Part shown: positions 2,735 through 15,913 of the stretch, piece by piece
Position numbering within the stretch: the first letter of the stretch is position 1
Layout of the letters: each line of letters begins with the position of its first letter
IMG/VR virus record: IMGVR_UViG_3300021957_004119
Coordinates: 1-22,955 of that record
DNA: 22,955 nucleotides
Origin: a virus
Strand: one strand, 5' to 3'
Translations under genes and position numbers: made by a program
Notes under the pieces: generated by a model
Database searches by the model: none
Told to the model about the DNA's origin: nothing
The model's input: the letters and a program-made list of their open reading frames with translations, nothing else

Positions 2735-5311
2735 ATGGCAGGTTATACAAGGCAGAGTGTTGCCGATATTGTTGCAAATGCAATTATCAAAGCTGCACCA
2801 GTAAACGCAGAATACAATGCTATTCGTGATGCTTTTAACGCAAGCACGGGCCACAAGCATGATGGAACCTCCGCAGAGGGGGCTTATGTACCTCTTATTG
2901 CAGATTTAGATGCTAAGAATAAAGTAGTAATAGATACAACTAACAATCGTGTAAGTTTCTATAATGAAGTTTCTTCTGTTGCTGTAGAGCAGATTAGACT
3001 AGAAGATGGTATTCTAAAACCTGTAACAGATAACGATATAGACCTTGGTGCTTCAGGGGCAGAGTTTAAAGATCTGTACATTAATGGTTTTGGCTATATT
3101 GACTCCGTAGTTATCACAGGTGGTACTATTGACGCAACTGCGATAGGAGGAACTACCCCTGCTGCTGCTGCTTTTACCACTATGGATGCTTCGGGTAACG
3201 CAACTGTTGGGGGTACGTTTGGGGTAACAGGTAATTCCACAGTAGGTGGTACTTTTGCTGTAACTGGTACAACTGCACTGACGGGCACTGCAACTATTAC
3301 ATCGGCAGATATTAACTCTGGTGCAATAGACAATACTACCATTGGCAACAGTACTCCCCTTACAATTACAGGGACTACTATTACAGGTACGTCACTTGTT
3401 GGACCTCTTACTGGCGATGTTACTGGTGATGTCACTGGCAATGTAACTGGAGATCTCACTGGAAACGTAACGGGTAATGTAGCAGGTAACTTAGATGGCA
3501 TTGTTGGTTCTTCTACTCCTGCTGCTGGTACTTTTACAACTGTATCAACATCTGGACAAGCAACCTTGGCGACTGCTGATATTAACGGCGGTAGCATTGA
3601 CAATACTATTATTGGAGCAGCAACTGCTGCAGCTATAACAGGTACTACCATTACTGGTACGAGTCTTGTGGGTCCAGTAACAGGGGATGTGACAGGCAAT
3701 CTTGCAGGTAATGTAACTGGAAATGTAACAGGTGACCTGACGGGTAACGTAACTGCTGCGTCTGGTTCGTCTACATTTAATAATGTTGTAATTGATGGCA
3801 CACTGAATATGAATGCTGGTACTACAGCTACTATTCAGAACCTTACTGCACCAGTAAATGATCTTGACGCAGCTACGAAAAAGTACGTGGACGATGAAGT
3901 AGCTGGTCTTGTAGACTCTGCCCCTGGTACATTAGACACACTGAACGAACTGGCTGCAGCATTAGGAGATGACTCAGACTTTGCCAACACAATCACAACT
4001 AGCATAGCAACCAAGTTACCACTAGCAGGTGGTACAATGACTGGTGCTATTGCTATGGGTACATCTAAGATTACAGGTCTAGGTGATCCAACTGCGGCAC
4101 AAGACGCAGCAAGTAAAAACTACACTGATACTACATTCTTAGGTCTGTCTGGTGGCACCATGACAGGTGCTATCGACATGGGTAGCCAAAAGATTACTAC
4201 TACCTACACACCTACAGACAATGCCGACCTTACTACTAAGACGTATGTAGATGGTGTATTAGGGTCAGCTACTGCTGCAGCTGCAAGTGCCTCAGCTGCT
4301 GCTACATCTGAGACAAATGCTGCAACGTCAGCAACTAATGCTGCCACTAGTGAGACAAATGCAGCTACCTCAGAAACCAATGCTGCTGCATCATACGACA
4401 GCTTTGATGATAGATATTTAGGTGCTAAGGCTTCGGCCCCTACAGTGGATAATGACGGAGATGCACTAATACCTGGTGCTCTTTATTTCAACACTACTAC
4501 TGACATTATGAATGTTAGAACGAGTGGTGGATCTTGGACTTCTGCAGGTTCTTCTGTCAATGGCACATCTGCCAGAAATACTTACATTGCTACGTCAGGT
4601 CAAACTGTTTTTGCTTCTACGTATGACTCTGGGTTTGTAGATGTGTACCTCAATGGTCTAAAATTATTGTCCACTACAGACTTTACAGCTACGACAGGAA
4701 CTAGTGTTGTTCTTACAACGGGAGCCACGGCAGGTGATATCGTTGATATTGTAGCTTACGGTACTTTTAATCTGGCTAATCATTTAACAGAAACACAGTC
4801 TGATGCTAAATACCTATTAGAATCAAACAATCTGTCGGATCTAGTAGATGCCTCAACAGCAAGAACAAATCTTGGTGTAGCCATTGGCTCTAATGTACAA
4901 GCCTATGATGCAGGTTTAACATCCATTGCAGGCCTTAGTACTGCAGCAGATAAGATGATATACACTACTGGGTCTGACAATTATGCTACTGCAGACCTAA
5001 GTTCTTTTGGACGAACACTAATTGATGATGCAGATGCCTCTGCTTCCAGAACAACATTAGGGGTTGTTATTGGCACAGATATACAGGCTTTTAATTCTAA
5101 TTTAACAGGCGTTAATCAAGGTTTAGCTACGACAGACAGTCCTACTTTTGCTACAGCAAATATTACAACTGCAGACTTTGGTAACTGGACAATCACTGAA
5201 AGCAGTGGCTCTTTGTACTTTGCTACTGGCGGTACAAATAAGATGAAGCTAGATGCTTCTGGTAATTTGACTGTTGTAGGGAACGTAAATGCTAATGCTA
5301 CTATTACATAG
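2735..5311 (+). CDS. Long modular tail fibre
   Basis: 858 residues. Modules in order: a likely virion-attachment N-terminus (1-60) with HKHDGT at about 40-45; a strand-rich segment with NDIDLGASGAEFKDLYINGF (99-118); a Thr/Gly/Val-rich beta-helical repeat region (about 120-345) with two ~90-residue units and TG(D/N)V tetrapeptides; two GGTMTGAI(A/D)MG units (about 432 and 473) with KKYVD/KTYVD motifs; an Ala/Thr/Ser/Asn repeat rod (510-552); a DDRYLGAKASAPTVDNDGDAL module (from 558); a DVYLNGLKL module (about 635-680); and a Leu/Ser-rich distal part. It ends with a KMKLDASGNLTVVGNV stretch, which in related fibres usually runs into an S74 chaperone domain; here the stop follows. It starts directly after the previous stop with AGAAGG as Shine-Dalgarno. 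Receptor contact by the distal part is inference. Confidence 0.8.
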   Translation: MAGYTRQSVADIVANAIIKAAPVNAEYNAIRDAFNASTGHKHDGTSAEGAYVPLIADLDAKNKVVIDTTNNRVSFYNEVSSVAVEQIRLEDGILKPVTDNDIDLGASGAEFKDLYINGFGYIDSVVITGGTIDATAIGGTTPAAAAFTTMDASGNATVGGTFGVTGNSTVGGTFAVTGTTALTGTATITSADINSGAIDNTTIGNSTPLTITGTTITGTSLVGPLTGDVTGDVTGNVTGDLTGNVTGNVAGNLDGIVGSSTPAAGTFTTVSTSGQATLATADINGGSIDNTIIGAATAAAITGTTITGTSLVGPVTGDVTGNLAGNVTGNVTGDLTGNVTAASGSSTFNNVVIDGTLNMNAGTTATIQNLTAPVNDLDAATKKYVDDEVAGLVDSAPGTLDTLNELAAALGDDSDFANTITTSIATKLPLAGGTMTGAIAMGTSKITGLGDPTAAQDAASKNYTDTTFLGLSGGTMTGAIDMGSQKITTTYTPTDNADLTTKTYVDGVLGSATAAAASASAAATSETNAATSATNAATSETNAATSETNAAASYDSFDDRYLGAKASAPTVDNDGDALIPGALYFNTTTDIMNVRTSGGSWTSAGSSVNGTSARNTYIATSGQTVFASTYDSGFVDVYLNGLKLLSTTDFTATTGTSVVLTTGATAGDIVDIVAYGTFNLANHLTETQSDAKYLLESNNLSDLVDASTARTNLGVAIGSNVQAYDAGLTSIAGLSTAADKMIYTTGSDNYATADLSSFGRTLIDDADASASRTTLGVVIGTDIQAFNSNLTGVNQGLATTDSPTFATANITTADFGNWTITESSGSLYFATGGTNKMKLDASGNLTVVGNVNANATIT
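3290..3767 (+). repeat. ~90-residue internal duplication in the fibre with TG(D/N)V tandem units
   Basis: Two coding units, residues about 186-275 and from 276 on, align at a 90-residue (270-base) offset. Each begins with (T/A)ADIN(S/G)G(A/S)IDNT and continues through ITGTTITGTSLVGP. Each ends in a run of four-residue TGDV/TGNV/TGDL units, which at the DNA level is a degenerate 12-base tandem repeat. This suggests a beta-solenoid shaft whose length can change by unequal recombination. Confidence 0.75.
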
Positions 5312-5319
5312 GGTGTGAT

Positions 5320-5538
5320 ATGGGACTGCAAATAAACGATACTAATGTAATTGATGATAATAAGAACATTGTGTCTGGGACACCTTCTGTCCAAGGTACA
5401 ATAGTAAAAGCTACTGTGTCTTATATTGCCCCTACTGGGACAACTGCACAAAGACCATCATCACCTTCCACAGGTATGTTATTCTTTGACACTGATGAAG
5501 GTAAGCTTGTCGCCTACAATGGCACTGAATGGGTATAA
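5320..5538 (+). CDS. Short stand-alone fibre module (first short/long pair, short member)
   Basis: 72 residues: an INDTNVIDDNKN start, a linker, then GTTAQRPSSPSTGMLFFDTD and a final LVAYNGTEWV, where the protein stops. The same two blocks form the N-termini of the genes at 5542, 7922 and 8154, so this is a free copy of a module the long proteins carry as their first ~70 residues. RPSSPxTGxLFFDTD blocks followed by a Trp are common in marine phage tail proteins, as far as I recall. There is no Cys, signal peptide or membrane segment. It sits eight bases after the fibre stop. A role as cap, adaptor or assembly partner of the long paralogue is inference. Confidence 0.65.
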   Translation: MGLQINDTNVIDDNKNIVSGTPSVQGTIVKATVSYIAPTGTTAQRPSSPSTGMLFFDTDEGKLVAYNGTEWV

Positions 5539-5541
5539 AGT

Positions 5542-7053
5542 ATGTCTTATAAAATAAACGATACAGTTGTTGTTGATGACTCAAGAAACGTTTGTGCTTG
5601 TTGTGTGACCTCCTGTTGCTTTACGGCCAGTGACCAAATGATTATTCCCTCTGGTAACACAGCAGGTAGACCGACAGGGGCTACTGGCTCCCTGTATTTT
5701 GACACTGACGAAGCTGCTCTTGTTGCTTATGATGGTACTGAGTGGGCTACTCAAGGTGGGGCTGGGATGCCAACTTGTAACCTTGCGGGTGCTCCCACTA
5801 CCTACACGTTTGCTGGTAACCTAAAAGACTTAAATTCTTATGAACCAATTATGCCGTATAACACAGCTTTATCGGATGCACAGGCAAGGTGTTGTAACGC
5901 AAGGATGTGTATGTCAGTTATACCAAGAGCAACTGGAATGCTGCAAACTCTAGTATGTTCGGATGATGCTTTTAGTTGTTGTTTTAGTTGTTTTAATGAA
6001 ACAACATACTTATCTCCAGACAGGTCTTTTGTTTCAATAGGAGGTAAGGGCGGTGCCACGGGTGGTTCAGCCTCCTATGGATTTAGCTCAGAAGATAATG
6101 CTTGGTACTACTCCCTTACGTGTAGTGGAGTAAGCCAATCTTTAATGTCTAAAATTGGCAATAAAATAATCGTAGCCCATCTCTGCTGCTGCCATTTTGC
6201 TATTTACGACCCAACTACTGGTTGTAGGTGTTTTTGTGGAACTCTTTCTACGTCACATAAAATTAAGGGGATTTACGAAGCTGCTTCAGGAAACTTAGGG
6301 CTAGTTACAGACTACAGTAATAGAACAGTTTTTACTGACATAAGTCTTACGGACTGTACCACCATATGTGGTAGGATGGGTGGAGACTATTTAAACCAAA
6401 CTGACTTTAACCTGAGACACGTAGCTCAAACTACTGACAAAGTTGCAGTGGGGTATCGTTTAAATTGTGGGGTTGGGGCATGCTGTGACCGTGCGGTTGT
6501 TTTAGATAAGACTACTGGTTGTATCTACCACTACTGTCCACCTACAATATGTGGGTGTTCACAAGGCAATCTGCAAACTCAAGTACTTACTATTAACGAT
6601 AACATCTACCTTAAAACGTATGTTGAGGGATATCAAACTCAGTGTGCAGGCACTGTCTTGACTAGAGTTTGCGATAACTTCTGTTTGTGCGGTGGTGTTG
6701 TAATTCAGGGTAGGTGTTGTGCTTGGTGGGGTCCAGATAATGAGAAGGTGTGGCCCAGATTTAATGCTGAAACTGTGTCTTTCCCGTTTCACCATAAGTG
6801 TTATATTCAAGGGACGTATCAAGCACTTGCTACCGTAGACTTGTATGAGTCAGGAAGCACCTCAAACACTTTTAAAGGTTCTGATCAAACGGGTTCTCCT
6901 GCTGGGTACTGTATCTACTTTAGTAAACACACTACTTCTTGCCCATCTTTCTGTACGGGAGTTGGGCTTAATGCGGGAAATATTGTTTGCTCTGGTGTAA
7001 GTGGGGGATGCCTTGCATACTGTATCCGTGTCCATAAGTTTATATGCTGTTAA
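5542..7053 (+). CDS. Cysteine-rich tail fibre/spike-like protein (first pair, long member)
   Basis: 503 residues. The first ~70 match the shared module: KINDTVVVDDSRN, then PSGNTAGRPTG, FDTDE and a GTEWA end. Cys begins directly after DSRN (VCACCVTSCC) and continues to the last residues (FICC). I count about 44 Cys (near 9%), many in CC or CxC groups, including HLCCCHF and GCRCFCG. The body has blade-like repeats of a strand, a D-x-x-TTG turn and another strand (IYDPTTGCRCFCG near 6205; VLDKTTGCIYHYC near 6505). These hint at a propeller or solenoid, but I do not recognise a named family. The frame is intact and Cys codons are spread over its length, so this is not a frameshift artefact. The role is inferred from the shared N-terminus and the position among fibres. 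Disulfide stabilisation or metal binding are both possible. Confidence 0.7.
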   Translation: MSYKINDTVVVDDSRNVCACCVTSCCFTASDQMIIPSGNTAGRPTGATGSLYFDTDEAALVAYDGTEWATQGGAGMPTCNLAGAPTTYTFAGNLKDLNSYEPIMPYNTALSDAQARCCNARMCMSVIPRATGMLQTLVCSDDAFSCCFSCFNETTYLSPDRSFVSIGGKGGATGGSASYGFSSEDNAWYYSLTCSGVSQSLMSKIGNKIIVAHLCCCHFAIYDPTTGCRCFCGTLSTSHKIKGIYEAASGNLGLVTDYSNRTVFTDISLTDCTTICGRMGGDYLNQTDFNLRHVAQTTDKVAVGYRLNCGVGACCDRAVVLDKTTGCIYHYCPPTICGCSQGNLQTQVLTINDNIYLKTYVEGYQTQCAGTVLTRVCDNFCLCGGVVIQGRCCAWWGPDNEKVWPRFNAETVSFPFHHKCYIQGTYQALATVDLYESGSTSNTFKGSDQTGSPAGYCIYFSKHTTSCPSFCTGVGLNAGNIVCSGVSGGCLAYCIRVHKFICC

Positions 7054-7077: not shown

Positions 7078-7920
7078 ATGAGCAAGGCAAGAGATTTAGC
7101 AGATTTAATTTCTACAGGGGGTACTCTGTCAGATCTCACTTCTAGTGCAACAGAGTTAAATGCTTTAGATGGAATTACCTCTGACGTAAACGAACTAAAT
7201 ATTCTAGATGGGGTTACATCTACTACTGCAGAATTAAATATTCTAGCTGGTGTTACCTCCAGTTCTGCAGAGTTAAACTTTGTAGACGGTGTTACATCTA
7301 GTGTACAAACCCAAATAGATACAAAAGCTCCATTAGCAAACCCCACATTTACAGGAACTGTCAATGGTGCTGCACTGGTTTTAACTGGAAATCTTACGGT
7401 TTCAGGAACTACAACAACTGTAAACTCAAATACCGTAGAGATTGGAGACTCGATTATAACTCTAAACTCTGACGAAGATGGTACACCTACTCAGAATGGT
7501 GGTATTGAGGTTGAAAGAGGTACTACCGACAACGTAAGATTTATCTGGGATGAAACTAATGATCAATGGTCTGCTGAGTCTTTTAATGGTTCGGCTTGGG
7601 TAGCAGCAAACTTTAAAGCAGCTACTGCAACTGTTACTGACCTTGATACAACCTCTGATCAAAACTTAAAACAAGATATTTATAATATTGAGAATCCCGT
7701 TGAGAAGGTAAAACAGATAAGTGGTGTGCATTTTACCTGGATTGAAACGGGAAAAGATTCTGCAGGTGTCATAGCTCAAGAAGTTGAGGCTGTTATGCCT
7801 GAGTTAGTTACTGACAAAGACGAAGGATATAAAGCTGTAAATTACATGGGTATCATTGGCCTATTAGTAGAAACAGTAAAAGAGTTAGAAAATAGAATAC
7901 AGCAGTTAGAAGATAGTTAA
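7078..7920 (+). CDS. Tail fibre with C-terminal S74 intramolecular chaperone
   Basis: 280 residues. The N-terminus carries four 13-residue ELNxLDGVT-type repeats (about 22-76), then a beta-rich segment with LTGNLTVSGTTTTVNSNTVE and a short W-rich turn. From about 190 to the end is an S74 (intramolecular chaperone auto-processing) domain: SDQNLKQDI, GVHFTWIE, AGVIAQEVEAVMPELV, AVNYMGIIGLLVETVKELE and a terminal helix. S74 domains trimerise, help the fibre fold and are then released by self-cleavage just before the conserved Ser. Ser193 and Lys198 are present in the expected S-D-x-x-L-K context, so cleavage looks possible and would leave a mature part of about 192 residues. The Shine-Dalgarno is AAAAGGGA. 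It separates the two short/long gene pairs. Confidence 0.85.
   Translation: MSKARDLADLISTGGTLSDLTSSATELNALDGITSDVNELNILDGVTSTTAELNILAGVTSSSAELNFVDGVTSSVQTQIDTKAPLANPTFTGTVNGAALVLTGNLTVSGTTTTVNSNTVEIGDSIITLNSDEDGTPTQNGGIEVERGTTDNVRFIWDETNDQWSAESFNGSAWVAANFKAATATVTDLDTTSDQNLKQDIYNIENPVEKVKQISGVHFTWIETGKDSAGVIAQEVEAVMPELVTDKDEGYKAVNYMGIIGLLVETVKELENRIQQLEDS
7153..7308 (+). repeat. Four 13-residue ELNxLDGVT repeats
   Basis: ELN occurs at residues 26, 39, 52 and 65 of the S74 fibre. Each is followed by a hydrophobic pair, D/A-G and (V/I)TS, giving an exact 13-residue (39-base) period. Such repeats are frequent in marine phage fibres and probably form a trimeric helical or beta shaft. Confidence 0.8.
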
Positions 7921-7921
7921 G

Positions 7922-8140
7922 ATGGCAGTAAAAATTAACGGCACTACAGTACTTAACGACTCCAGGAATTTTACGAGTGATACTGTATCAATACAGGGCA
8001 CAAATCTTGTCGCCACTCAAAAATTTAAAGTTGCTTCTGGCACTACAGCCCAACGTCCTAGTAGTCCTGGTACTGGGGATCTATTTTTTGACACGGACGA
8101 AGGAACACTCATTTCCTTTAATGGAACTGATTGGGCATAA
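7922..8140 (+). CDS. Short stand-alone fibre module (second short/long pair, short member)
   Basis: 72 residues, the same length as the gene at 5320 and built the same way: KINGTTVLNDSRN, then a SGTTAQRPSSPGTG block, LFFDTDEG and a final FNGTDWA with the stop just after it. It lacks Cys. It begins two bases after the stop of the S74 fibre. It is closer in layout to 5320 than to its long neighbour at 8154: both short copies have a (S/T)xQGTxxxAT linker that the Cys-rich copies replace. This supports duplication of a whole two-gene cassette. Its function is unknown; an attachment or assembly partner role is inferred. Confidence 0.65.
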   Translation: MAVKINGTTVLNDSRNFTSDTVSIQGTNLVATQKFKVASGTTAQRPSSPGTGDLFFDTDEGTLISFNGTDWA

Positions 8141-8153
8141 AGAGGAATAAGTA

Positions 8154-10283
8154 ATGGCAGTAAAAGTTAATGGTACCACAGTAATTGATGACAGCCGAAA
8201 TGTTTGTGCAGTTTCTGTCTGTGCCTGTTGTATAGAAAGTTCCTCAACAGTCACTATTCCTTCGGGAAACACAGCAAGTAGGCCTACGGGGGGTACTGGT
8301 CAAGTCTTCTTTGACACAGACGAAGGGTCACTCATAGCACATGACGGTTCAGATTGGGCTGCTGTGGGTGGTGGAACTACTATTAACATGAATGAGTATA
8401 GTACTGGTAGTATGACAGGCGTAGCAGGGGCAGTTACCAGTAATACGCCAGAATGTACACAAGCTCATTATGAGGTTGGTTACAACAACTCTACTGCTCT
8501 TTTCTTTCATAGCAAGTGCGGATGTTGCAACCATGTTGTAAGCAATGGCTCACCAGGAAATGGTGGTTTTAGGGTTAAAAATGGTTTAACAGGAGATGTT
8601 GCAACCTTTTCAGGCGGCTGCGGCACATCGTCTGCCCAATATTGTTGTGGGCAGATAATGATGAATGATGTAGTATTGAGGCCATGTGGTATAGAAGACA
8701 CAGATCCAAGAGCCACAATACCTATACTTACAACCCACGGTTGTGCGACTTTTGCTTCCTTTCTAGAAACCAATGGTAGCCTAACAATTAGATGTACAGG
8801 TAATGGTCCTTCGATGAGTCCATCTACCCTTGGGAATGTCACTAACTTCCCTAAAACAGCTATTTTTAGGCAGTATGGGGTGTTTAAAAATCAATGCAAC
8901 TGCGGTATTGAATCCTATGGTGATTCTTGTTGTGGGGTCACTATTACTCTTAATTTAACTAAACGAACTTGCTATCAAAATGCAGGTTGCATATTTTTAG
9001 ACGCCACCTTTGGCTATAAACCTTGTTACTTTTATTCGACAGAAACGTGTGCAGATGCCGCCTCTTCACCTGTTAGATTTCAGAGGATGTGTGGGGGTAA
9101 CATATGCTGTGGTAGTAACCAGAATGCTGTGGTTATTGACTGGTCCACTAAAACTTTTTGGACAGTTACAGGCAATGGTGTGGGTGCCTGTTGTAATTAC
9201 TGTAGAAATATAATGCAATGGTGCATTTGTGATAAAGGATACCCTAACTGCCAGTCTTGTTGGTGTATGGCGACCACCCCCATGTGTCGTCTTTTTACAT
9301 GCTGTATGCACTGTGTTATTCAGAGTGGTGCCGCAGGAAGCTGCTGTACTTATGGCAGAGGTGTTCTTCATGGTGGAAAGTTGATAATCCCTCAAAACGA
9401 TCCTAGAACTACCTGTGGGACTATACACGTTTTTCCTACAACAGCAGGATCTGTTTGCGGTGTCAAGTTGGGTAGGTGTGGGTTGTATGTAGGACTAAGC
9501 CCTGGCCTTCCAATGGGGTTACACCACGATAAAGACGGGAATCTAAGAGGGTTCTTTGCGTGGTCACCTACCAGTGTGAGAAGTAATACTTTTGGCTGCA
9601 ATAACTGCAGTGTACAGGGTGTTACTGAGTTTATGTGGGCACCAGGGTGTGATATATCCACACAGGTAGCTACTAACATGGTTGAGTATCACGCAACCCG
9701 CAACTGTAGCTTGCCTGGACATAATTTATGGCCGATACAGTGTACTTGCACTTGCCCATCAACGTCATTTTGGGGAACAGCTGATTGGCTTAGGTGTAGT
9801 AATAATTTAGTAGGCTATAATAACCTAACGGGTAAAAGAAGCATTACAGGTTTTTCGTTCAGATGTGGAGCTTCTACCCTAACGAATATGTTAACTTCTT
9901 TTGTAACAGACGAACCTGCTATTGATTTTGCAAGTGGAAGTGTTTGTTGCTTTATGACGCAGAAAACTGCAGAAGCTTTAAACCACCTTGTACTTACAGG
10001 TCGAGGGTCTTGTATTGCTGCAAGGCAGTGTATTGACAATGTATTCCCTACAAACGGTTACAGCTTTTCTTTTCACTATTGTTGTGGTGGTTGTGTAAAA
10101 GTCTGTACAGCTAATGCTATGGGTAACTCAAGTTGTGGTGGTTTAGCTTTATGCCCTAACTTTTGTAGTCAGTATGATGGGCCTAGTGTAAACAGAAACT
10201 GTTTATCAAATAGTGACTTTTTATGTCTAGACAACAAAATGAATGTACCACCTGCAGTTTGGCCTATGTGCACCTCGCCATAA
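8154..10283 (+). CDS. Cysteine-rich tail fibre/spike-like protein (second pair, long member)
   Basis: 709 residues. The N-terminus is the shared module (KVNGTTVIDDSRN, PSGNTASRPTGGTG, FFDTDEG, a GSDWA end), again with Cys starting right after DSRN (VCAVSVCACC). I count about 65 Cys (near 9%). The densest part is around residues 345-400: ACCNYCRNIMQWCICDKG, then QSCWCM, TCCMHC and SCC. The body differs from the protein at 5542 and is about 200 residues longer, but shares strand/turn patterns such as AVVIDWSTKTFW. There are no membrane segments or signal peptide. The Shine-Dalgarno is AGAGGAA. It is the last gene before the sugar-modification island. The fibre or spike role rests on the shared N-terminus and position. 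Why it carries so much Cys is unknown; disulfide lattice, metal binding or modified Cys are all open. Confidence 0.7.
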   Translation: MAVKVNGTTVIDDSRNVCAVSVCACCIESSSTVTIPSGNTASRPTGGTGQVFFDTDEGSLIAHDGSDWAAVGGGTTINMNEYSTGSMTGVAGAVTSNTPECTQAHYEVGYNNSTALFFHSKCGCCNHVVSNGSPGNGGFRVKNGLTGDVATFSGGCGTSSAQYCCGQIMMNDVVLRPCGIEDTDPRATIPILTTHGCATFASFLETNGSLTIRCTGNGPSMSPSTLGNVTNFPKTAIFRQYGVFKNQCNCGIESYGDSCCGVTITLNLTKRTCYQNAGCIFLDATFGYKPCYFYSTETCADAASSPVRFQRMCGGNICCGSNQNAVVIDWSTKTFWTVTGNGVGACCNYCRNIMQWCICDKGYPNCQSCWCMATTPMCRLFTCCMHCVIQSGAAGSCCTYGRGVLHGGKLIIPQNDPRTTCGTIHVFPTTAGSVCGVKLGRCGLYVGLSPGLPMGLHHDKDGNLRGFFAWSPTSVRSNTFGCNNCSVQGVTEFMWAPGCDISTQVATNMVEYHATRNCSLPGHNLWPIQCTCTCPSTSFWGTADWLRCSNNLVGYNNLTGKRSITGFSFRCGASTLTNMLTSFVTDEPAIDFASGSVCCFMTQKTAEALNHLVLTGRGSCIAARQCIDNVFPTNGYSFSFHYCCGGCVKVCTANAMGNSSCGGLALCPNFCSQYDGPSVNRNCLSNSDFLCLDNKMNVPPAVWPMCTSP

Positions 10284-10373: not shown

Positions 10374-11300
10374 ATGAAAACTGTCTTTATGATTGACGGT
10401 GGTGCTGGAAGAGCTATTGCAGCAATTCCTGCTCTCATCAAGTACAGTAAGAGTAATCCTGACTTTAGGGTTATAGTTCATGGTTGGGATACTTTGTACT
10501 GGGGTATTCCTGAGCTTCATGACAAGGTGTTTAACCCAGACCAGAAGGGTGCCTTTGAGCAATTTTTTATGGGTGCTGATAGAGTTCTTTCCCCAGAACC
10601 TTACAGAGTACCTGGGTACTACAGACAAGAAAAGTCTTTAGCTGAAGCCTTTGACTACTTGATTAATGAAACAGACGATCATTCTGATCTTAGTTTACCA
10701 GTTATTAAAACAAATAAGAACGAAGAGTTACAAGCAGCTAATTTTATACGAGAAACAAAGCAGCAGCAACAGAAGCAAAAAACGATTATTATACAGCCTT
10801 TTGGAAGGTCAATGGAGAAACCTCAAGAGGGCGTTCTGTTAGATCAGTCTTCTCGTTCTATTAATCCTGATACATATATCAAGTTGGTTAAGAAGTTATC
10901 TACGAAGTACAACCTAGTGTTGTTCGCAGAGAAAAACTTCTGGATGGAAGAAGATACCTATACAATGAAGCCCGAGGCTGACCTTCGTATGTGGTCTGCT
11001 TTCATTGACGCAGCTGATTACTTCATTGGTTGTGATTCTGTTGGTCAACACATGGCTCGTGCCATGAATAAGCCTGGTACAGTTATTGTTGGTTCTACCT
11101 TTGCTGTCAATACCTCCTATCCTGACTACTTTAATATCATTGAAAGGGATGTTCAGAAGAAGTACTCACCTATCCGTATATCAGGTCTTGAGTCTCACTT
11201 GGCAGATAGAGCTAATGAAGCTACTGTTGAGTTCACGGATGAAGAGATCAATAAGATCTACGAGTCTATCGTAAAAGACATTGAAAAGAAGGTGAAGTAA
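10374..11300 (+). CDS. GT9-like (heptosyltransferase-type) glycosyltransferase
   Basis: 308 residues with a GT-B-like layout. The N-terminal domain opens with a strand and glycine-rich turn (FMIDGGAGRAIAAIPALIKY), as in ADP-heptose:LPS heptosyltransferases, which start with a similar G-x-G and P-A-L helix. The C-terminal half starts with TIIIQPFGRS (137-146), then a helix and LVLFAEKNF. It ends with ADYFIGCDSVGQHMARAM (215-232) and a TVIVGST strand (236-242), matching the GT9 donor-binding pattern (I/V-x-x-DS-G-x-x-H-x-A). It is probably cytosolic. A Gln/Lys-rich stretch (129-136) links the halves. The next gene starts immediately after its stop, so the two are one operon. An ADP-heptose donor is inferred from the family and the heptose genes downstream; the acceptor is unknown. 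Confidence 0.65.
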   Translation: MKTVFMIDGGAGRAIAAIPALIKYSKSNPDFRVIVHGWDTLYWGIPELHDKVFNPDQKGAFEQFFMGADRVLSPEPYRVPGYYRQEKSLAEAFDYLINETDDHSDLSLPVIKTNKNEELQAANFIRETKQQQQKQKTIIIQPFGRSMEKPQEGVLLDQSSRSINPDTYIKLVKKLSTKYNLVLFAEKNFWMEEDTYTMKPEADLRMWSAFIDAADYFIGCDSVGQHMARAMNKPGTVIVGSTFAVNTSYPDYFNIIERDVQKKYSPIRISGLESHLADRANEATVEFTDEEINKIYESIVKDIEKKVK

Positions 11301-13016
11301 ATGAATATTCTAGGTATTAATCCAGGTCATAACGGTGCAGCTGCACTCTTGATTGACGGTGAGCTTGAGTTCTACATTGAAGAGGAACGTCTGTCCCGTA
11401 GTAAATACGATGGCAACCCTCTTATGGGTATCCTTGAAGGTTTGAAGTTCGGTATTGATGTCCTTGTCCTTGGTGGGACTAGCCCTCAGTTTCCTCAGCT
11501 TCCTTGGACAGGGGAAGACCCTTATAGTGCTCTGGTTCGCAAGCATAACCCAAATGTTAAGGTCATTAACGTAGGTCACATCCACCATATTGGTCATGCT
11601 GCCTCAGCATTTTATAACTCAGGGTTTGAAGATGCTGCTGCTGTTATTGTAGACGGATCTGGTACACGTCAAGAGATACAGGTAGACGAAGAGGGCAATA
11701 AGAACCCTGGCTTTGAGACTGAAACAATCTTTAACTGTGACTACGAAGAGGGTATCAAGCCTGTCTTTCAATCCTTCGGTGGTAACCCTGACACCCAACG
11801 TGTTGTAGGTGATAACATTGAGATGGACTCAGCTATTACTCTGGTTAAAGCTTATGAGGCTGTGTCTGAGTACCTTGGTTTTGGTTTCATTGAAGCTGGT
11901 AAGACAATGGGTCTTGCACCGTATGGTAAAGACGATAATCTTATTCCTTCTCTCTTCTATGGTGGTCGTGGTAACAAGAACGTATTCGTTCCTAACTACC
12001 CTGCTGGTGCTCACATTGACCACACACGTCACCCTTATCTGACACTCAAGGAAGATCCCCGTGCTTGGCACAGTAACTACACTAAGGTGACGGATGCTGC
12101 TAAAAATCTAGCATGGGCTGTGCAGGATGAAACTCAACGTCTTGTTGGTGACCTGATTGAGAAGGCTGTAAAACTAACAGGCAAAAAACAAATTGTTATT
12201 TCTGGTGGCTATGGTCTCAACTGTGTGGCTAATTACTATTACAAGAAACGTTTTCCTGACTTGGAAATATACGTTGATCCTATCTCTCATGATGGTGGTA
12301 CTGCACTGGGTCTAGCTCAACTGGTCCACTATGCAGAGACTAAGGACAAGACTATCCGTCCACTCAAGACCCTGTACCTTGGGCCTGAACGTAAGGGGTC
12401 ATACGACTTCGGTGACATTGAGACTACAGACGTAACACCTGCTGACATTGCTAAGATGATTTCTGAGAAGAACATTGTGGCTATGGTTCAGGGTAGGTCT
12501 GAGGCTGGTCCTCGTGCTCTAGGTAACCGTTCGATCCTGTACGATCCCACTGATCCTAAAGGTAAGGACACAGTGAACAAGGTAAAAGGACGTGAGTGGT
12601 TCAGACCATTTGCAGGGTCCATGATGCAGGAGCACTTTGCGGAGTGGTTTGAAACCTACGGAATGGAAGAGTCACCGTCCATGATGTATGCAATGGATTT
12701 CAAGCTAGAGAAGCATGGTGAGTGCCCAGCAATCACACACGTAGATGGTACTTGTCGTATTCAGACTGTTACTAAAGAACAGAATGAAGTGTATCACACT
12801 CTTATTGATGAGTTCCGTAAAATTACAGGTGTACCTATCTTGTTCAATACTAGCTTTAACTTGGCTGGTGAACCTCTGGTAGAAACACTTGATGATGCAA
12901 TGAGAACTATTAAGAACTCTGACATCAACTACCTGTACCTACCAGAGCTAGGCAAGCTGGTACACTACCCCTACAATGACTCTATTGTAGAAGACTTGGA
13001 GGAGGCTGCTGCTTAA
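11301..13016 (+). CDS. NodU/TobZ-family O-carbamoyltransferase
   Basis: 571 residues, full length for the family. The enzymes transfer a carbamoyl group from carbamoyl phosphate, via carbamoyl-adenylate, to a hydroxyl of a sugar or antibiotic. The Kae1-like domain starts with ILGINPGHNGAAALL and EEERLSRSK. Metal ligands are visible as His95 and His99 (HHIGH) and Asp118 (VDGSG), with Asp331 in SHDGGTALG; the H-x3-H and 19-residue gap to Asp match what I recall of TobZ. The C-terminal part has QGRSEAGPRALGNRSIL (397-413), VKGREWFRPFAGS and FNTSFNLAGEPLVET. All key motifs look intact. Arg codons are nearly all CGT, unlike the AGA/AGG-rich virion genes, which suggests separate origin or high expression. 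The stop overlaps that of the convergent phosphatase gene by 4 bases. The substrate is unknown; a sugar attached by the GT9 neighbour is likely. Confidence 0.88.
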   Translation: MNILGINPGHNGAAALLIDGELEFYIEEERLSRSKYDGNPLMGILEGLKFGIDVLVLGGTSPQFPQLPWTGEDPYSALVRKHNPNVKVINVGHIHHIGHAASAFYNSGFEDAAAVIVDGSGTRQEIQVDEEGNKNPGFETETIFNCDYEEGIKPVFQSFGGNPDTQRVVGDNIEMDSAITLVKAYEAVSEYLGFGFIEAGKTMGLAPYGKDDNLIPSLFYGGRGNKNVFVPNYPAGAHIDHTRHPYLTLKEDPRAWHSNYTKVTDAAKNLAWAVQDETQRLVGDLIEKAVKLTGKKQIVISGGYGLNCVANYYYKKRFPDLEIYVDPISHDGGTALGLAQLVHYAETKDKTIRPLKTLYLGPERKGSYDFGDIETTDVTPADIAKMISEKNIVAMVQGRSEAGPRALGNRSILYDPTDPKGKDTVNKVKGREWFRPFAGSMMQEHFAEWFETYGMEESPSMMYAMDFKLEKHGECPAITHVDGTCRIQTVTKEQNEVYHTLIDEFRKITGVPILFNTSFNLAGEPLVETLDDAMRTIKNSDINYLYLPELGKLVHYPYNDSIVEDLEEAAA

Positions 13017-13660
13017 GGCAGCTTATCAACAAATTGGAGGAGATTGTCGAAAACTTTCGTCTTCTTTCTTAACTTCTCTTTAGAGAACTTCTTCAACTCT
13101 CCTTCAGTAGCCATCCCGTGACCAGTACGTACTAGGATCGGGGTGGCACCAATCTTAGCAGCAGCTTTGAGGTCGGACATCTTGTCTCCTACGTAGAAAC
13201 CACCCTGTTTGAAACGGGCCTTTCCCTCAAAGATTTCTTTCTCTGCTCTGTGAAACATACCTAGGTTAGGTTTGGCGTAGTAGTCTTCTTTTAATGATGT
13301 TTCAGAATAGAAAAGACCATCAATAGTGTAAATACCTGCATTGCCAAAGATTTCAAACATACGTTGATGTACAGCTTCTACCTGCTCATGTGTTTGTAAT
13401 TTCTTTTTAATACCTCCCTGATTAGTGAGGATAACTACTTTGTAACCTTTTATACGGAGCTTACGGATAGCTGCTAGAGATTTAGGATAAACTTCAAAGT
13501 CATCAGGATCTGTGATGTAGTGCCCCTTGTCTATATTTATAACACCATCACGATCTAGCCCCACAATAGACTTGGGGAAAACTGTAGGCCAATCTGGGGG
13601 TAACTCTTGTTGAGATTGTGGGCTTGGTTCTTGTTCAATAATGTGTTTAAATCTGGACAT
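13013..13660 (-). CDS. gmhB: HAD phosphatase, GmhB-like (heptose bisphosphate phosphatase candidate)
   Basis: 215 residues, the only minus-strand gene. HAD motifs: GLDRDGVIN (Asp36 nucleophile, Asp38 acid/base), VILTNQGGI (Thr79), YAKPNLGMF (Lys130) and FYVGDKMSDLKAAAKIGA (Asp159, Asp163). The C-terminus continues as TPILVRTGHG. This order and spacing fit the HAD-IIIA group of GmhB (D,D-heptose 1,7-bisphosphate 7-phosphatase) and histidinol phosphatases. It has about 30 extra N-terminal residues, and the C-x-H...C-x-C zinc loop usual in GmhB is absent (no Cys between motifs II and III). The substrate is therefore inferred mainly from the adjoining heptose genes; a polynucleotide or other sugar phosphatase is possible. 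Start chosen for a strong AAGGAGA at 13671-13665. It overlaps the carbamoyltransferase stop by 4 bases and diverges from 13690 across 29 bases. Confidence 0.7.
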   Translation of the reverse strand: MSRFKHIIEQEPSPQSQQELPPDWPTVFPKSIVGLDRDGVINIDKGHYITDPDDFEVYPKSLAAIRKLRIKGYKVVILTNQGGIKKKLQTHEQVEAVHQRMFEIFGNAGIYTIDGLFYSETSLKEDYYAKPNLGMFHRAEKEIFEGKARFKQGGFYVGDKMSDLKAAAKIGATPILVRTGHGMATEGELKKFSKEKLRKKTKVFDNLLQFVDKLP

Positions 13661-13689: not shown

Positions 13690-14100
13690 ATGAAAAAAGT
13701 ATTTGTCAATGGAGCCTTTGATGTACTACACTCTGGACACCTTGATCTTATTGATTTTGCAGGTATGTTAGGGGGTCAACTACTTGTAGCTATTGACACA
13801 GATGACAAAATAAGGTATAACAAGGGGGCAGATAGACCTTTTAACAATCTGAAAAATCGGAAGCATCTGATGTCAATGTTAAAGCCTGTTACTAATGTTG
13901 TGCCATTTAACTCTGATGAGGAGTTAGCCGATATTATTAAAAGGTATGAACCTGACGTTATGGTAAAAGGTTCTGATTGGAGGGGGAAGAAGATTGTTGG
14001 GGAGGAATACTGTAAGGAAATAGTATTCTTTGAGAGGACCAATGATGAATCAACAACAAAAACCCTCCAAGATTTTGTTGATAGGAGACGGATGTTATGA
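13690..14100 (+). CDS. hldC: ADP-heptose synthase nucleotidyltransferase domain protein (HldC / HldE C-terminal type)
   Basis: 136 residues, a complete cytidylyltransferase-fold protein. The nucleotide-binding motif is FVNGAFDVLHSGHLDLI, with His14 and His17 in the H-x-G-H signature. Then come IDTDDKIRYNKGADRPFNNL and an R-x-H-L-M-S-M-L helix, PDVMVKGSDWRGKKIVG, and near the end ERTNDESTTKTL, whose STT matches the HldE C-terminal domain. It would adenylylate D-glycero-D-manno-heptose 1-phosphate to ADP-heptose. Glycerol-3-phosphate cytidylyltransferase is the main alternative, but the VKGSDW and STT motifs and the kinase and epimerase neighbours favour heptose. Shine-Dalgarno AGGA lies about ten bases upstream. 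The last 56 bases are shared with the kinase gene in another frame. Confidence 0.8.
   Translation: MKKVFVNGAFDVLHSGHLDLIDFAGMLGGQLLVAIDTDDKIRYNKGADRPFNNLKNRKHLMSMLKPVTNVVPFNSDEELADIIKRYEPDVMVKGSDWRGKKIVGEEYCKEIVFFERTNDESTTKTLQDFVDRRRML
14031..14038 (+). promoter_or_regulatory. Shine-Dalgarno setting the kinase start inside the upstream gene
   Basis: TGAGAGGA lies six bases before the ATG at 14045 and three before the ATG at 14042. A TTG at 14030 would precede this site. The spacing favours 14045 (protein MNQQQKPSK...), or less likely 14042. Confidence 0.55.
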
Positions 14101-14800
14101 CGAGTATTGTTACGGCATTGTAAACAGGCTAAACCCAGAAGCACCAGTACCAGTATTAGACTGGGATACTACTGCTAGTAAACTAGGCATGGCTGGCAAT
14201 GTATTAAAAAATCTAGTCTCTTTGGGAGTAGACTGTCACTACGACATTTTGTACAAGGAAACAAAAAGAAGGTATATTGATTCAAAGACAGGCCAACAAA
14301 TTGTTAGAGTTGATATCCCACTCTTAAAAGAGGTGCATGATGAACATCGACTGCACAAGTTTAATGATTACGATGCTGTCGTCATTTCTGACTATAATAA
14401 AGGTTATGTTAGTACCTTTGCAATACAAAGCATACTAGAAAGTTATGACGGTCCTGTATTTATTGATACAAAAAAACAAGATCTAAAGTTACTTGGTAAG
14501 GCTTTTGTAAAAATAAATCAGTACGAATATGAAAATAGAATATCTGATGCAGAAAATATGATTGTTACGTTTGGATCAGAGAAAGTTGTATACAAAGATA
14601 GACTATACTTACCACCAAAAGTAGATGCACATGATGTTTGTGGAGCAGGAGATACTTTTTTAGCAGCTCTGGTGTATGACTACTTACAAACAGACAACAT
14701 AGAAAAAGCTATTGAGTTTGCTATGAAGGCTGCTGCGGTAACTGTCCAACATGTCGGTGTCTATGCACCCCGTATCGGGGAGATACGTAATGCGGCTTGA
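14045..14800 (+). CDS. hldA: Heptose 7-phosphate kinase (HldA / HldE N-terminal, PfkB fold)
   Basis: 251 residues from ATG 14045. It phosphorylates C1 of D-glycero-D-manno-heptose 7-phosphate in the HldE kinase family. Visible motifs: ILLIGDGCYDEYCYG, then VNRLNPEAPVPVLDWD (family R-x-(S/N)-PEAPVPV), a glycine/Asn turn GMAGNVLKNLVSLG, KRRYIDSKTGQQIVRVD, VVISDYNKGYV, and the PfkB signature DVCGAGDTFLAAL with the catalytic Asp in GAGD. It ends with VGVYAPRIGEI. Usual HldE kinase domains are about 320 residues, so this is a shortened form, mostly in the middle. The gene follows the nucleotidyltransferase, the reverse of domain order in fused bacterial HldE. It overlaps that gene by 56 bases and the cupin by 11. 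Arg codons are mostly AGA/AGG. Confidence 0.8.
   Translation: MNQQQKPSKILLIGDGCYDEYCYGIVNRLNPEAPVPVLDWDTTASKLGMAGNVLKNLVSLGVDCHYDILYKETKRRYIDSKTGQQIVRVDIPLLKEVHDEHRLHKFNDYDAVVISDYNKGYVSTFAIQSILESYDGPVFIDTKKQDLKLLGKAFVKINQYEYENRISDAENMIVTFGSEKVVYKDRLYLPPKVDAHDVCGAGDTFLAALVYDYLQTDNIEKAIEFAMKAAAVTVQHVGVYAPRIGEIRNAA
14777..14783 (+). promoter_or_regulatory. Shine-Dalgarno selecting the cupin start at 14790
   Basis: GGGGAGA lies six bases before the ATG at 14790, inside the end of the kinase gene. Upstream in-frame ATGs at 14751 and 14763 have no comparable site and would add residues not expected in the cupin fold. Confidence 0.6.
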
Positions 14801-15146
14801 TGGACATGTTAAAAAGGGTTGGGGTTCAGAACTGATATGGGCAACCAACGACAAGTATTGTGGTAAGTTTTTACATTTTAACGAGGGTGCTAAATTTTCT
14901 ATGCACTTTCACAAAGAGAAAGATGAAACTTGGTATGTCCTTAAGGGAAAATTTAAAGTTATCTATATTGATACAAAAGATGCAAGAACTTATGAAAAAA
15001 CTCTTACAGCTGGTGATACGTGGCGTAACGAGCCTTTGGTCCCGCATCAAATCATTTGTGAAACGGAAGGGACAGTAATTGAAGTATCTACTCCTGACTC
15101 GGTAGAAGATAACTATCGTGTAGGTCGGGGGGACAGTCAGGGATGA
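14790..15146 (+). CDS. Single-domain cupin, possible phosphosugar isomerase
   Basis: 118 residues from ATG 14790. The N-terminus (HVKKGWGSELIWATNDKYCG) and the core resemble the cupin domain of type II mannose-6-phosphate isomerases. Metal ligands appear intact: His39, His41 and Glu46 in FSMHFHKEKDETWYVLKG, and His86 in VPHQI. A VIEVSTPDS...EDNYR tail also fits that group. It lies within the heptose operon, overlapping the kinase by 11 bases and the epimerase by 4 (ATGA). Metal-dependent cupins include aldose-ketose phosphosugar isomerases. No GmhA homologue is in the window, so it could supply the missing sedoheptulose 7-phosphate isomerase step. Alternatives are a sugar-nucleotide ketoisomerase/epimerase or a non-catalytic cupin. 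The fold is fairly sure; the role is inference. Confidence 0.7.
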   Translation: MRLDGHVKKGWGSELIWATNDKYCGKFLHFNEGAKFSMHFHKEKDETWYVLKGKFKVIYIDTKDARTYEKTLTAGDTWRNEPLVPHQIICETEGTVIEVSTPDSVEDNYRVGRGDSQG

Positions 15147-15913
15147 AGATACTAGTTACTGGTAGTAGTGGGTTTATTGGCAAAAACATGGTCAATGCCC
15201 TTTCTGAACAGCACGAAGTTACTAAAAACGAATGGGGGATGTCCTTTCCCAAAGTAGAAGGGTTAGATTGGGTAGTACATTTGGGGGCTATCAGCTCTAC
15301 TACTGAAACAAATATCAGTCGTATATACAGACAAAATGTAGAGTTTTCTATTAGACTGTATGAAGAGTGTATTAAGCACAACGTGGGATTTCAGTTTGCG
15401 TCTAGTGCCTCGGTGTATGGGCTGAAGTCAGAGTTTAAAGAAACATCCCCCCTTGCTCCTCAAAACCACTATGCCCGTAGCAAGGCACTGTTTGAAAAAT
15501 ACATAGAGCTTCGTAATGCTGATATTACTACGCAAGTCTTTAGGTACTTTAATGTATATGGGCCACATGAAGGTCATAAGGGTAATCAGGCAAGCCCACA
15601 TAGTAAGTTTATGTATCAGGCTAAGACAGATGGTAAGATAAAACTATTTAAAGGTTCAGACAAATTTTTTAGGGATTTTATCCCTGTGAGCAAGATTGTG
15701 GCAAACCATAAAAAGTTTTTTGGCATAAAAGAGTCTGGCATTTGGAACTTTGGGTTGGGAATAGCCCGTAGTTTTAAAGATGTTGCAACAGAAGTGTCGT
15801 TAAGAACTGGTGCAGAAATAGAGTATATTGACTTTCCAGACAATTTAAAAGGTAATTATCAAGATTTTACTGAGGCAGATACAGCAAAGCTTGAAGAGAC
15901 TCTAGTATTATAA
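15143..15913 (+). CDS. hldD: ADP-L-glycero-D-manno-heptose 6-epimerase
   Basis: 256 residues of the extended SDR family. It converts ADP-D-glycero- to ADP-L-glycero-D-manno-heptose using bound NADP. Motifs: Rossmann KILVTGSSGFIGKNMV (2-17), VVHLGAISSTTETN (44-57), FASSASVYG (85-93), the catalytic pair Tyr110-x3-Lys114 in YARSK, and FRYFNVYGPHEGHKG (133-147) whose Lys146 matches the second catalytic Lys of HldD. These are followed by LFKGSDKFFRDFIPV and FPDNLKGNYQDFTEADTAKL. The HSSTTE-like, HKG and YQ-x-FT-x-AD motifs are HldD-specific, so the call is strong. It is about 50 residues shorter than E. coli HldD, mainly at the C-terminus and in the early nucleotide-binding part. The start overlaps the cupin stop (ATGA). 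Confidence 0.88.
   Translation: MKILVTGSSGFIGKNMVNALSEQHEVTKNEWGMSFPKVEGLDWVVHLGAISSTTETNISRIYRQNVEFSIRLYEECIKHNVGFQFASSASVYGLKSEFKETSPLAPQNHYARSKALFEKYIELRNADITTQVFRYFNVYGPHEGHKGNQASPHSKFMYQAKTDGKIKLFKGSDKFFRDFIPVSKIVANHKKFFGIKESGIWNFGLGIARSFKDVATEVSLRTGAEIEYIDFPDNLKGNYQDFTEADTAKLEETLVL

Follow-up and report, generated by a model that had tools for sequence, protein, structure and literature searches.

Cysteine-rich fibre proteins linked to a GT9-type heptosyltransferase in phages and an archaeal genome: possible scaffolds for S-linked heptose

Main finding

Here we analysed an entire IMG/VR record of 22,955 bases (hereafter the window) together with related loci of phages and archaeal genomes. 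The window, from a marine phage, encodes two fibre/adhesin proteins with roughly one cysteine (Cys) per eleven residues, and downstream of them lies a cassette of heptose genes that begins with a GT9-type glycosyltransferase. The same linkage of Cys-rich protein and GT9 spans roseophage-like podoviruses, T4-like cyanophages (P-SSM2, S-SSM7, S-CAM1) and one archaeal genome, and we regard a functional tie of the Cys-rich adhesins to this GT9 as close to certain. We propose, with a probability of roughly 0.58, that the Cys of proteins 1 and 2 are acceptors for S-linked heptose or carbamoyl-heptose supplied by the neighbouring cassette. It also seems slightly better than an even bet that these genes represent an undescribed modification system of marine and freshwater phages and an archaeal genome, in which adhesins of about 10% Cys provide a densely packed scaffold to carry S-linked (carbamoyl-)heptose, and in which the writer is a distinct clade of GT9 with Arg where LPS heptosyltransferases have Asp.

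Table 1. Position and predicted nature of the features of the window
Feature	Position	Strand	Remarks
Long tail fibre, S74-type	2735..5311	+	0 Cys in window
N-terminal adaptor copy	5320..5538	+	72 aa, Cys-free; directly 5' of protein 1
Cys-rich fibre/adhesin protein 1	5542..7053	+	503 aa, 44 Cys (8.7%); residues 1-74 are the shared N-terminal adaptor, the remainder, a Cys-rich body, contains DxTTG motifs that look blade-like
Tail fibre with C-terminal Peptidase_S74 chaperone domain	7078..7920	+	0 Cys
N-terminal adaptor copy	7922..8140	+	72 aa, Cys-free; directly 5' of protein 2; order kept in locus L113
Cys-rich fibre/adhesin protein 2	8154..10283	+	709 aa, 65 Cys (9.2%); N-terminal adaptor as in protein 1, body different
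GT9-type heptosyltransferase (phrog_8954)	10374..11300	+	Proposed Cys S-heptosyltransferase; Arg13 invariant; D221-S-x-G-Q-H donor motif
NodU/Nol-like carbamoyltransferase	11301..13016	+	Proposed heptose carbamoylation
GmhB-like heptose bisphosphate phosphatase	13013..13660	-	
HldE domain II-like heptose-1-phosphate adenylyltransferase	13690..14100	+	
HldE domain I-like (PfkB) heptose-7-phosphate kinase	14030..14800	+	
Cupin-fold enzyme, WbuC/mannose-phosphate-isomerase-like	14751..15146	+	PHROG family label 'cysteine dioxygenase'
HldD-like ADP-glyceromanno-heptose 6-epimerase	15143..15913	+	

Cysteine-rich proteins of the window

The tail genes of the window at 462-2734 have 66-69% DNA identity to those of the roseophages CRP-1, CRP-2, CRP-9 and CRP-13, and neither a Cys-rich protein nor a heptose cassette was found in the examined part of these four genomes. 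The high Cys content of protein 1 had been noticed in an earlier sequence-only reading, which included neither the second Cys-rich protein nor the adjacent heptosyltransferase cassette, the main clue. The observation itself is borne out, as only 20.2 Cys would be expected from the base composition of the gene (P = 1.6e-6), and protein 2 likewise has an excess of Cys over its composition (P = 2.9e-10). Chance or AT-rich composition was thus rejected as the source of the Cys richness, with P values of 1e-6 to 1e-10. A Cys habit of the whole phage was also rejected, because Cys is scarce in the other virion proteins of phages with such genes; the remaining long virion-type genes of the window encode mostly 0-2 Cys. 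The Cys of protein 1 start straight after the DSRN motif (VCACCVTSCC) and run to the very end of the protein (...ICC), just as had been described.

Proteins 1 and 2 have about 74 N-terminal residues in common, at 58% identity, and are otherwise not alike in anything of note. In most relatives a 71-aa ORF is present at the place matching that of the adaptor-only ORFs. By synteny, protein 1 is encoded among the tail-fibre genes of a roseophage of CRP type, and its N-terminus has weak matches to the virion structural families phrog_6005 and phrog_20787, so that the proposed role as a tail-fibre or receptor-binding protein fits what its sequence and setting suggest. The D-x-TTG repeats, which had been read as blades, are present. 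The AlphaFold2 model of protein 1 (10-row alignment) has a mean pLDDT of 39.9 and no usable fold, and only the part from residue ~200 to 270, modelled as strands, rises to 59-73; because the model is this poor despite the motifs, a blade architecture is only plausible.

The body of protein 1 gave no close relative by tblastn against phages or by a pattern scan of IMG/VR, and the same kinds of search gave none for the body of protein 2, which groups with bodies of L052, L102, L104, L113 and L150 in the clustering of Cys-rich bodies. Searches with the bodies by phmmer and iterated hmmsearch added little past the shared N-terminus, and Pfam held no match for the Cys-rich proteins of the window. 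Since no close relatives of the bodies were found in this way, the family was reached through its neighbour genes.

Linkage of the cysteine-rich proteins to GT9

Loci were picked by the conserved tail protein at 1193-2734, a choice which is blind to Cys. A Cys-rich ORF was present in 10 of 10 such loci with the cassette and in 0 of 11 that cover the whole region and lack the cassette (Fisher P = 2.8e-6), but several of these loci are one phage in different assemblies, and the independent cases are therefore fewer. When GT9 was used as the anchor, a Cys-rich ORF was found in 69 of 78 IMG/VR loci, mostly directly upstream. When the anchor was the glycine-rich type of Cys-rich protein, GT9 was found in 72 of 80 IMG/VR loci, and the other eight are contigs that are cut off. 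The Cys-rich proteins beside GT9 vary in length from about 235 to 1460 aa.

All eight named or single-cell phages with this GT9 (P-SSM2, S-SSM7, S-CAM1, S-CAM3, Sf-FS3 and AG-345 viruses) carry one to three adjoining Cys-rich genes of 7.6-11.6% Cys, and the cyanophage proteins among them are glycine-rich, adhesin-like and match Gly_rich_2 (PF21722). The complete genome of P-SSM2 has 169 non-overlapping ORFs of at least 150 aa, of which only PSSM2_304 and PSSM2_306 exceed 4.0% Cys (10.1% each, with a median of 1.1%), and both adjoin GT9. The other glycine-rich fibres of the GT9-positive phages have at most 2% Cys. P-RSM4 carries the carbamoyltransferase, has no match to GT9 and has no Cys-rich protein in the stretch examined, and the carbamoyltransferase was therefore dropped as the linked factor.

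The unit is also present in Candidatus Woesearchaeota MAG JAHFPP010000006.1 (L220 6040-11317), where a glycine-rich protein of 593 aa with 52 Cys (8.8%) lies directly upstream of GT9, the carbamoyltransferase and GmhB. Ordinary archaeal genes (Cbf5/TruB-like, enolase, L16/L10e and MCM) flank this unit, and ORFs of this one genome with the same N-terminus that lie away from GT9 have 0-1.4% Cys. A 6.5 kb contig of a Euryarchaeota MAG, PBPH01000067.1 (L221 697-1530, 3779-6522), encodes a 277-aa glycine-rich protein with 26 Cys together with a cyanophage-type GT9 and the carbamoyltransferase; this contig is binned as archaeal and may be viral.

Among the nine GT9 loci without a Cys-rich ORF, the contigs of L157 and L192 end near GT9, as do those of L206 and L218. 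The other exceptions are loci of freshwater type, and one of them, L213, has a YadA-like ORF with 55 Cys. This ORF (L213 2-4303) encodes a repeat fibre of 1,433 residues whose Cys are at variable repeat positions, on a freshwater contig with GT9 and carbamoyltransferase. In the freshwater loci L206/L207 and L216-L218, which have GT9 and carbamoyltransferase, and L214, which has GT9 alone, no Cys-rich ORF was found in the stretch examined; they are either real exceptions or cases of a different acceptor. Most of these six loci have carbamoyltransferase and sulfotransferase-like genes.

Pattern of the cysteines

More than 120 distinct Cys-rich phage fibre/adhesin proteins (about 6-13% Cys) were found, and they have many kinds of body that are unrelated to one another (beta-blade-like, glycine-rich or YadA-like). 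The 121 proteins that were compared have a mean of 10.5% Cys, which is equal to their Gly, with Ser and Thr together at about 16%. By relatedness of their bodies they sort into 18 clusters, with 36 singletons left over, so that Cys richness is not the property of one fold.

Conservation was measured in C-masked alignments, in which Cys is hidden from the aligner. The positions of Cys, on whose conservation the earlier idea of paired residues depended, turned out to be moderately conserved. At 30-40% identity the value for Cys is 0.38, which Gly (0.52), Trp (0.44) and Pro (0.40) exceed, with most residues at 0.12-0.38, and at 50-65% identity Cys is the most conserved residue, at 0.83. Sites of Cys exchange with E, Q, N, R, K, T and S and avoid W, V and L. 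In the long tail fibre, when Cys-rich and Cys-poor orthologues of 2735-5311 are compared, Cys stands in place of Q 3.4 times, of M 2.1 times and of N 2.0 times as often as expected. The spacing of Cys is nearly flat, with adjacent Cys-Cys enriched 1.38-fold and spacing 3 (CxxC) 1.14-fold, and the number of Cys is odd in 51 of the 115 proteins counted.

Because these Cys are loosely placed, exchange with hydrophilic residues and are often odd in number, they have the character of exposed sites that are dispensable one by one, and not that of fixed disulfides or of metal sites. Some of them may be structural, since Cys is somewhat better conserved than the average residue. The ladders of disulfides or the bound metal that the sequence-only reading had put forward fit poorly with the moderate conservation, the frequent odd counts, the hydrophilic exchanges and a spacing that is not that of metal sites, and these suggestions are judged unlikely.

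The orthologues of the long fibre have 13-58 Cys in most cassette loci (L017, L036, L052, L057, L092, L107 and others), and in L021 and L029, as in the window, they have 0 Cys despite the cassette.

GT9 enzyme and heptose cassette

The AlphaFold2 model of the window GT9, made from 57 sequences, has a pLDDT of 95.2. The fold search with it gave 3tov (Z 23.6), WaaF (21.2), TibC (20.8, rmsd 2.8 over 262 residues) and WaaC (19.3), with the next fold at 12.2, and the first 11 matches (Z 18-24) are all GT9/heptosyltransferases or chloroplast NDH-supercomplex relatives. On this model the enzyme is predicted to have the GT-B heptosyltransferase fold. Its scores against the family HMMs are under the curated cut-offs (PF01075, 17 bits against 22; TIGR02201, 24.6 against 170), and a sequence search of PDB gave nothing useful.

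The E. coli enzymes WaaC, WaaF, WaaQ and WaaU have Gly12-Asp13 in the acceptor-side loop, whereas 149 of 149 phage-type enzymes have Gly12-Arg13, in a register taken from an ungapped N-terminal reading from the start to Pro19, since hhalign aligned the C-terminal half only. The donor motif DSxGQH (D221) is kept. The change of Asp13 to Arg may reflect a changed acceptor chemistry, and Arg13 would suit a thiol acceptor because a thiol needs no carboxylate base.

The remaining genes are predicted to encode most of the ADP-heptose pathway. The best matches of the HldE kinase, the adenylyltransferase, GmhB and HldD have E-values of 3e-34, 3e-28, 1e-36 and 5e-64, all below curated cut-offs, and GmhA was not found in the window by the family profile search. 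The cupin at 14751-15146, a usual member of the cassette, matches phrog_7851 'cysteine dioxygenase' at 5.2e-40; in NCBIfam and Pfam it lies near oxalate-decarboxylase, WbuC and mannose-phosphate-isomerase cupins, all of them weak matches. Other genes are interleaved with the heptose cassette in two phages: S-SSM7 (L135 21175-31435) has a tryptophan halogenase and one more carbamoyltransferase there, and Sf-FS3 (L138 21096-28520) has several 2OG-Fe(II) prolyl-hydroxylase-like enzymes.

Proposed mechanism and known systems

In the proposed mechanism, the phage HldE-like kinase and adenylyltransferase, the GmhB-like phosphatase and the HldD-like epimerase would build ADP-heptose. Before lysis, while the fibre is still in the reducing cytoplasm of the host, the phage GT9 would move the heptose onto its thiols, and the NodU-like carbamoyltransferase would decorate the sugar. 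The outcome would be a dense hydrophilic shell of S-glycan on the host-facing protein, which may help, for example, in receptor binding, in resistance to proteases or in keeping the thiols from oxidation and clumping. What the data show is the richness in Cys and its return in many unrelated proteins, a linkage to the GT9 cassette that is nearly obligate, the heptosyltransferase fold, the pathway genes, the loose and hydrophilic nature of the Cys positions and the invariant Arg at the place of Asp13. Within this scheme we infer the Cys sulphur as acceptor, the carbamoylation of heptose, the order of the steps and the benefit of the coat.

The closest known parallel is the heptosylation of adhesins by TibC and AAH. 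The protein heptosyltransferase TibC hyperglycosylates Ser residues of autotransporter adhesins; its catalytic residue is Asp110, and it has a beta-barrel at the N-terminus as well as an iron finger of four Cys (PMC4358343). The phage enzyme is like TibC/AAH in its GT9 fold and its adhesin partner, and TibC/AAH use the ADP-heptose which the phage cassette would supply. It differs in having 308 aa, in beginning at the catalytic domain (residue 1 of the model corresponds to TibC residue 97), in having one Cys and Arg13 and in its Cys-rich neighbours; both the four-Cys iron finger and the N-terminal beta-barrel of the TibC type are absent. By analogy the phage system would work like that of TibC/AAH, yet it falls outside that group.

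With the LPS heptosyltransferases WaaC, WaaF and WaaQ the phage enzyme shares the fold and the C-terminal donor motif D-[ST]-x-x-x-H, but overall identity is only about 12-15%, Asp13 is replaced by Arg, and the phage gene is tied to Cys-rich proteins. SunS-type enzymes are GT-A (GT2) and not GT9, and to our knowledge the use of ADP-heptose by them has not been reported. The glycocin S-glycosyltransferases (SunS, ThgS; e.g. PMC6405829) put sugar on the sulphur of Cys, which in the phage is the proposed bond only, and they act on one or a few sites of small secreted peptides, in contrast to a GT-B enzyme with neighbours of much greater length. Gly_rich_2 (PF21722) is known from phage tail adhesin tips, and the cyanophage Cys-rich proteins that have this domain differ in their 5-12% Cys from the Cys-poor glycine-rich fibres of the same phages.

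The 'LPS gene clusters' of T4-like cyanophages (P-SSM2, S-SM2, S-SSM7; PMC3037559) share their genes for nucleotidyltransferase, kinase and epimerase with the cassette (T4-GC 304, 305, 307, 308). The comparison of cyanophages in 2010 did not decide whether the heptose genes are LPS genes with a function or 'stuffer DNA' (PMC3037559), whereas here they are tied to adjacent Cys-rich adhesins. No paper tying heptose genes to Cys-rich proteins was found in the open-access literature, although earlier reports elsewhere are possible, and the open-access literature found on Cys-rich phage proteins is unrelated. Sugar-coated Cys in phage fibres would be a protein modification for which the open-access literature holds no description that we could find.

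Alternative explanations

The linkage may be explained in other ways. The cassette could glycosylate the fibres on Ser, Thr or Asn by O- or N-links, with the Cys serving separately as oxidative cross-links or as a scaffold that glycosylated adhesins need. TibC, which is among the closest folds, modifies Ser and not Thr (PMC4358343), and the bodies do offer Ser and Thr in quantity; we consider this unlikely, as it does not account for Cys, instead of Ser, reaching about 10% in unrelated proteins beside GT9, for the hydrophilic and often odd-numbered Cys or for the change of Asp to Arg. Disulfide ladders, in which pairing of the Cys once they are released into oxic seawater would harden the fibre, the nearby heptose genes being a separate module for the host surface, would agree with the enriched Cys-Cys pairs, the moderate conservation of Cys and the exposure of tail fibres to an oxidising medium. 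They are harder still to credit when Cys is less conserved than Gly, Trp and Pro at 30-40% identity and is substituted by hydrophilic residues, when odd counts are this frequent and when no disulfide-forming enzyme is recognised among the cassette genes; the linkage with the heptosyltransferase would also be a coincidence, repeated in podoviruses, myoviruses and an archaeal genome. Clustered Cys could instead bind metal or Fe-S and give a metal-loaded fibre. Protein 1 has CCC and CxC groups and one related protein has a sub-threshold match to Fer4_2 (E 0.076), but CxxC is barely enriched and the positions of Cys are loosely conserved, and we give this reading the lowest weight of all.

There are two further explanations. 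The cassette may remodel the LPS of the host, for example against superinfection, as was proposed for P-SSM2, and may adjoin the Cys-rich adhesins since both concern the host surface. The WaaF/WaaC-like fold of GT9 speaks for this, and the cyanophage LPS clusters were so interpreted in PMC2984593, their functionality being left unsettled by the 2010 comparison (PMC3037559). On the other side, it gives no reason for the enrichment of Cys, and the unit stands beside a Cys-rich protein in the Woesearchaeota genome also. LPS is generally absent from archaea, and we judge this account to be a shade less credible than disulfide ladders. Less credible again is another modification of Cys by the cassette, for example if the cupin oxidised the Cys and the sugar enzymes had their targets elsewhere. 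The PHROG match to 'cysteine dioxygenase' and the regular presence of the cupin in the cassette favour it, but NCBIfam and Pfam place the cupin, weakly, near the sugar-type and oxalate-decarboxylase cupins, and the archaeal unit consists of Cys-rich protein, GT9, carbamoyltransferase and GmhB, with no cupin matched in the stretch examined. S-linked heptose on the Cys of the adhesins is the reading that we prefer.

Significance

The analysis has turned an odd composition into a testable system. If the preferred reading is true, neither S-heptosylation nor a hyper-S-glycosylated structural protein would have a precedent. The system also offers a reason for the presence of heptose and carbamoyltransferase genes in cyanophages like P-SSM2. 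Even with the bond elsewhere, Cys-dense adhesins that are tied to one enzyme across unrelated folds and viruses need explaining. With the sugar on sulphur, protein glycosylation would gain a new class, and stable S-glycoproteins could be made with an enzyme of a new kind. The surface that these phages present to the host would then be sugar rather than protein, and the view of phage-host recognition in the ocean would therefore be altered.
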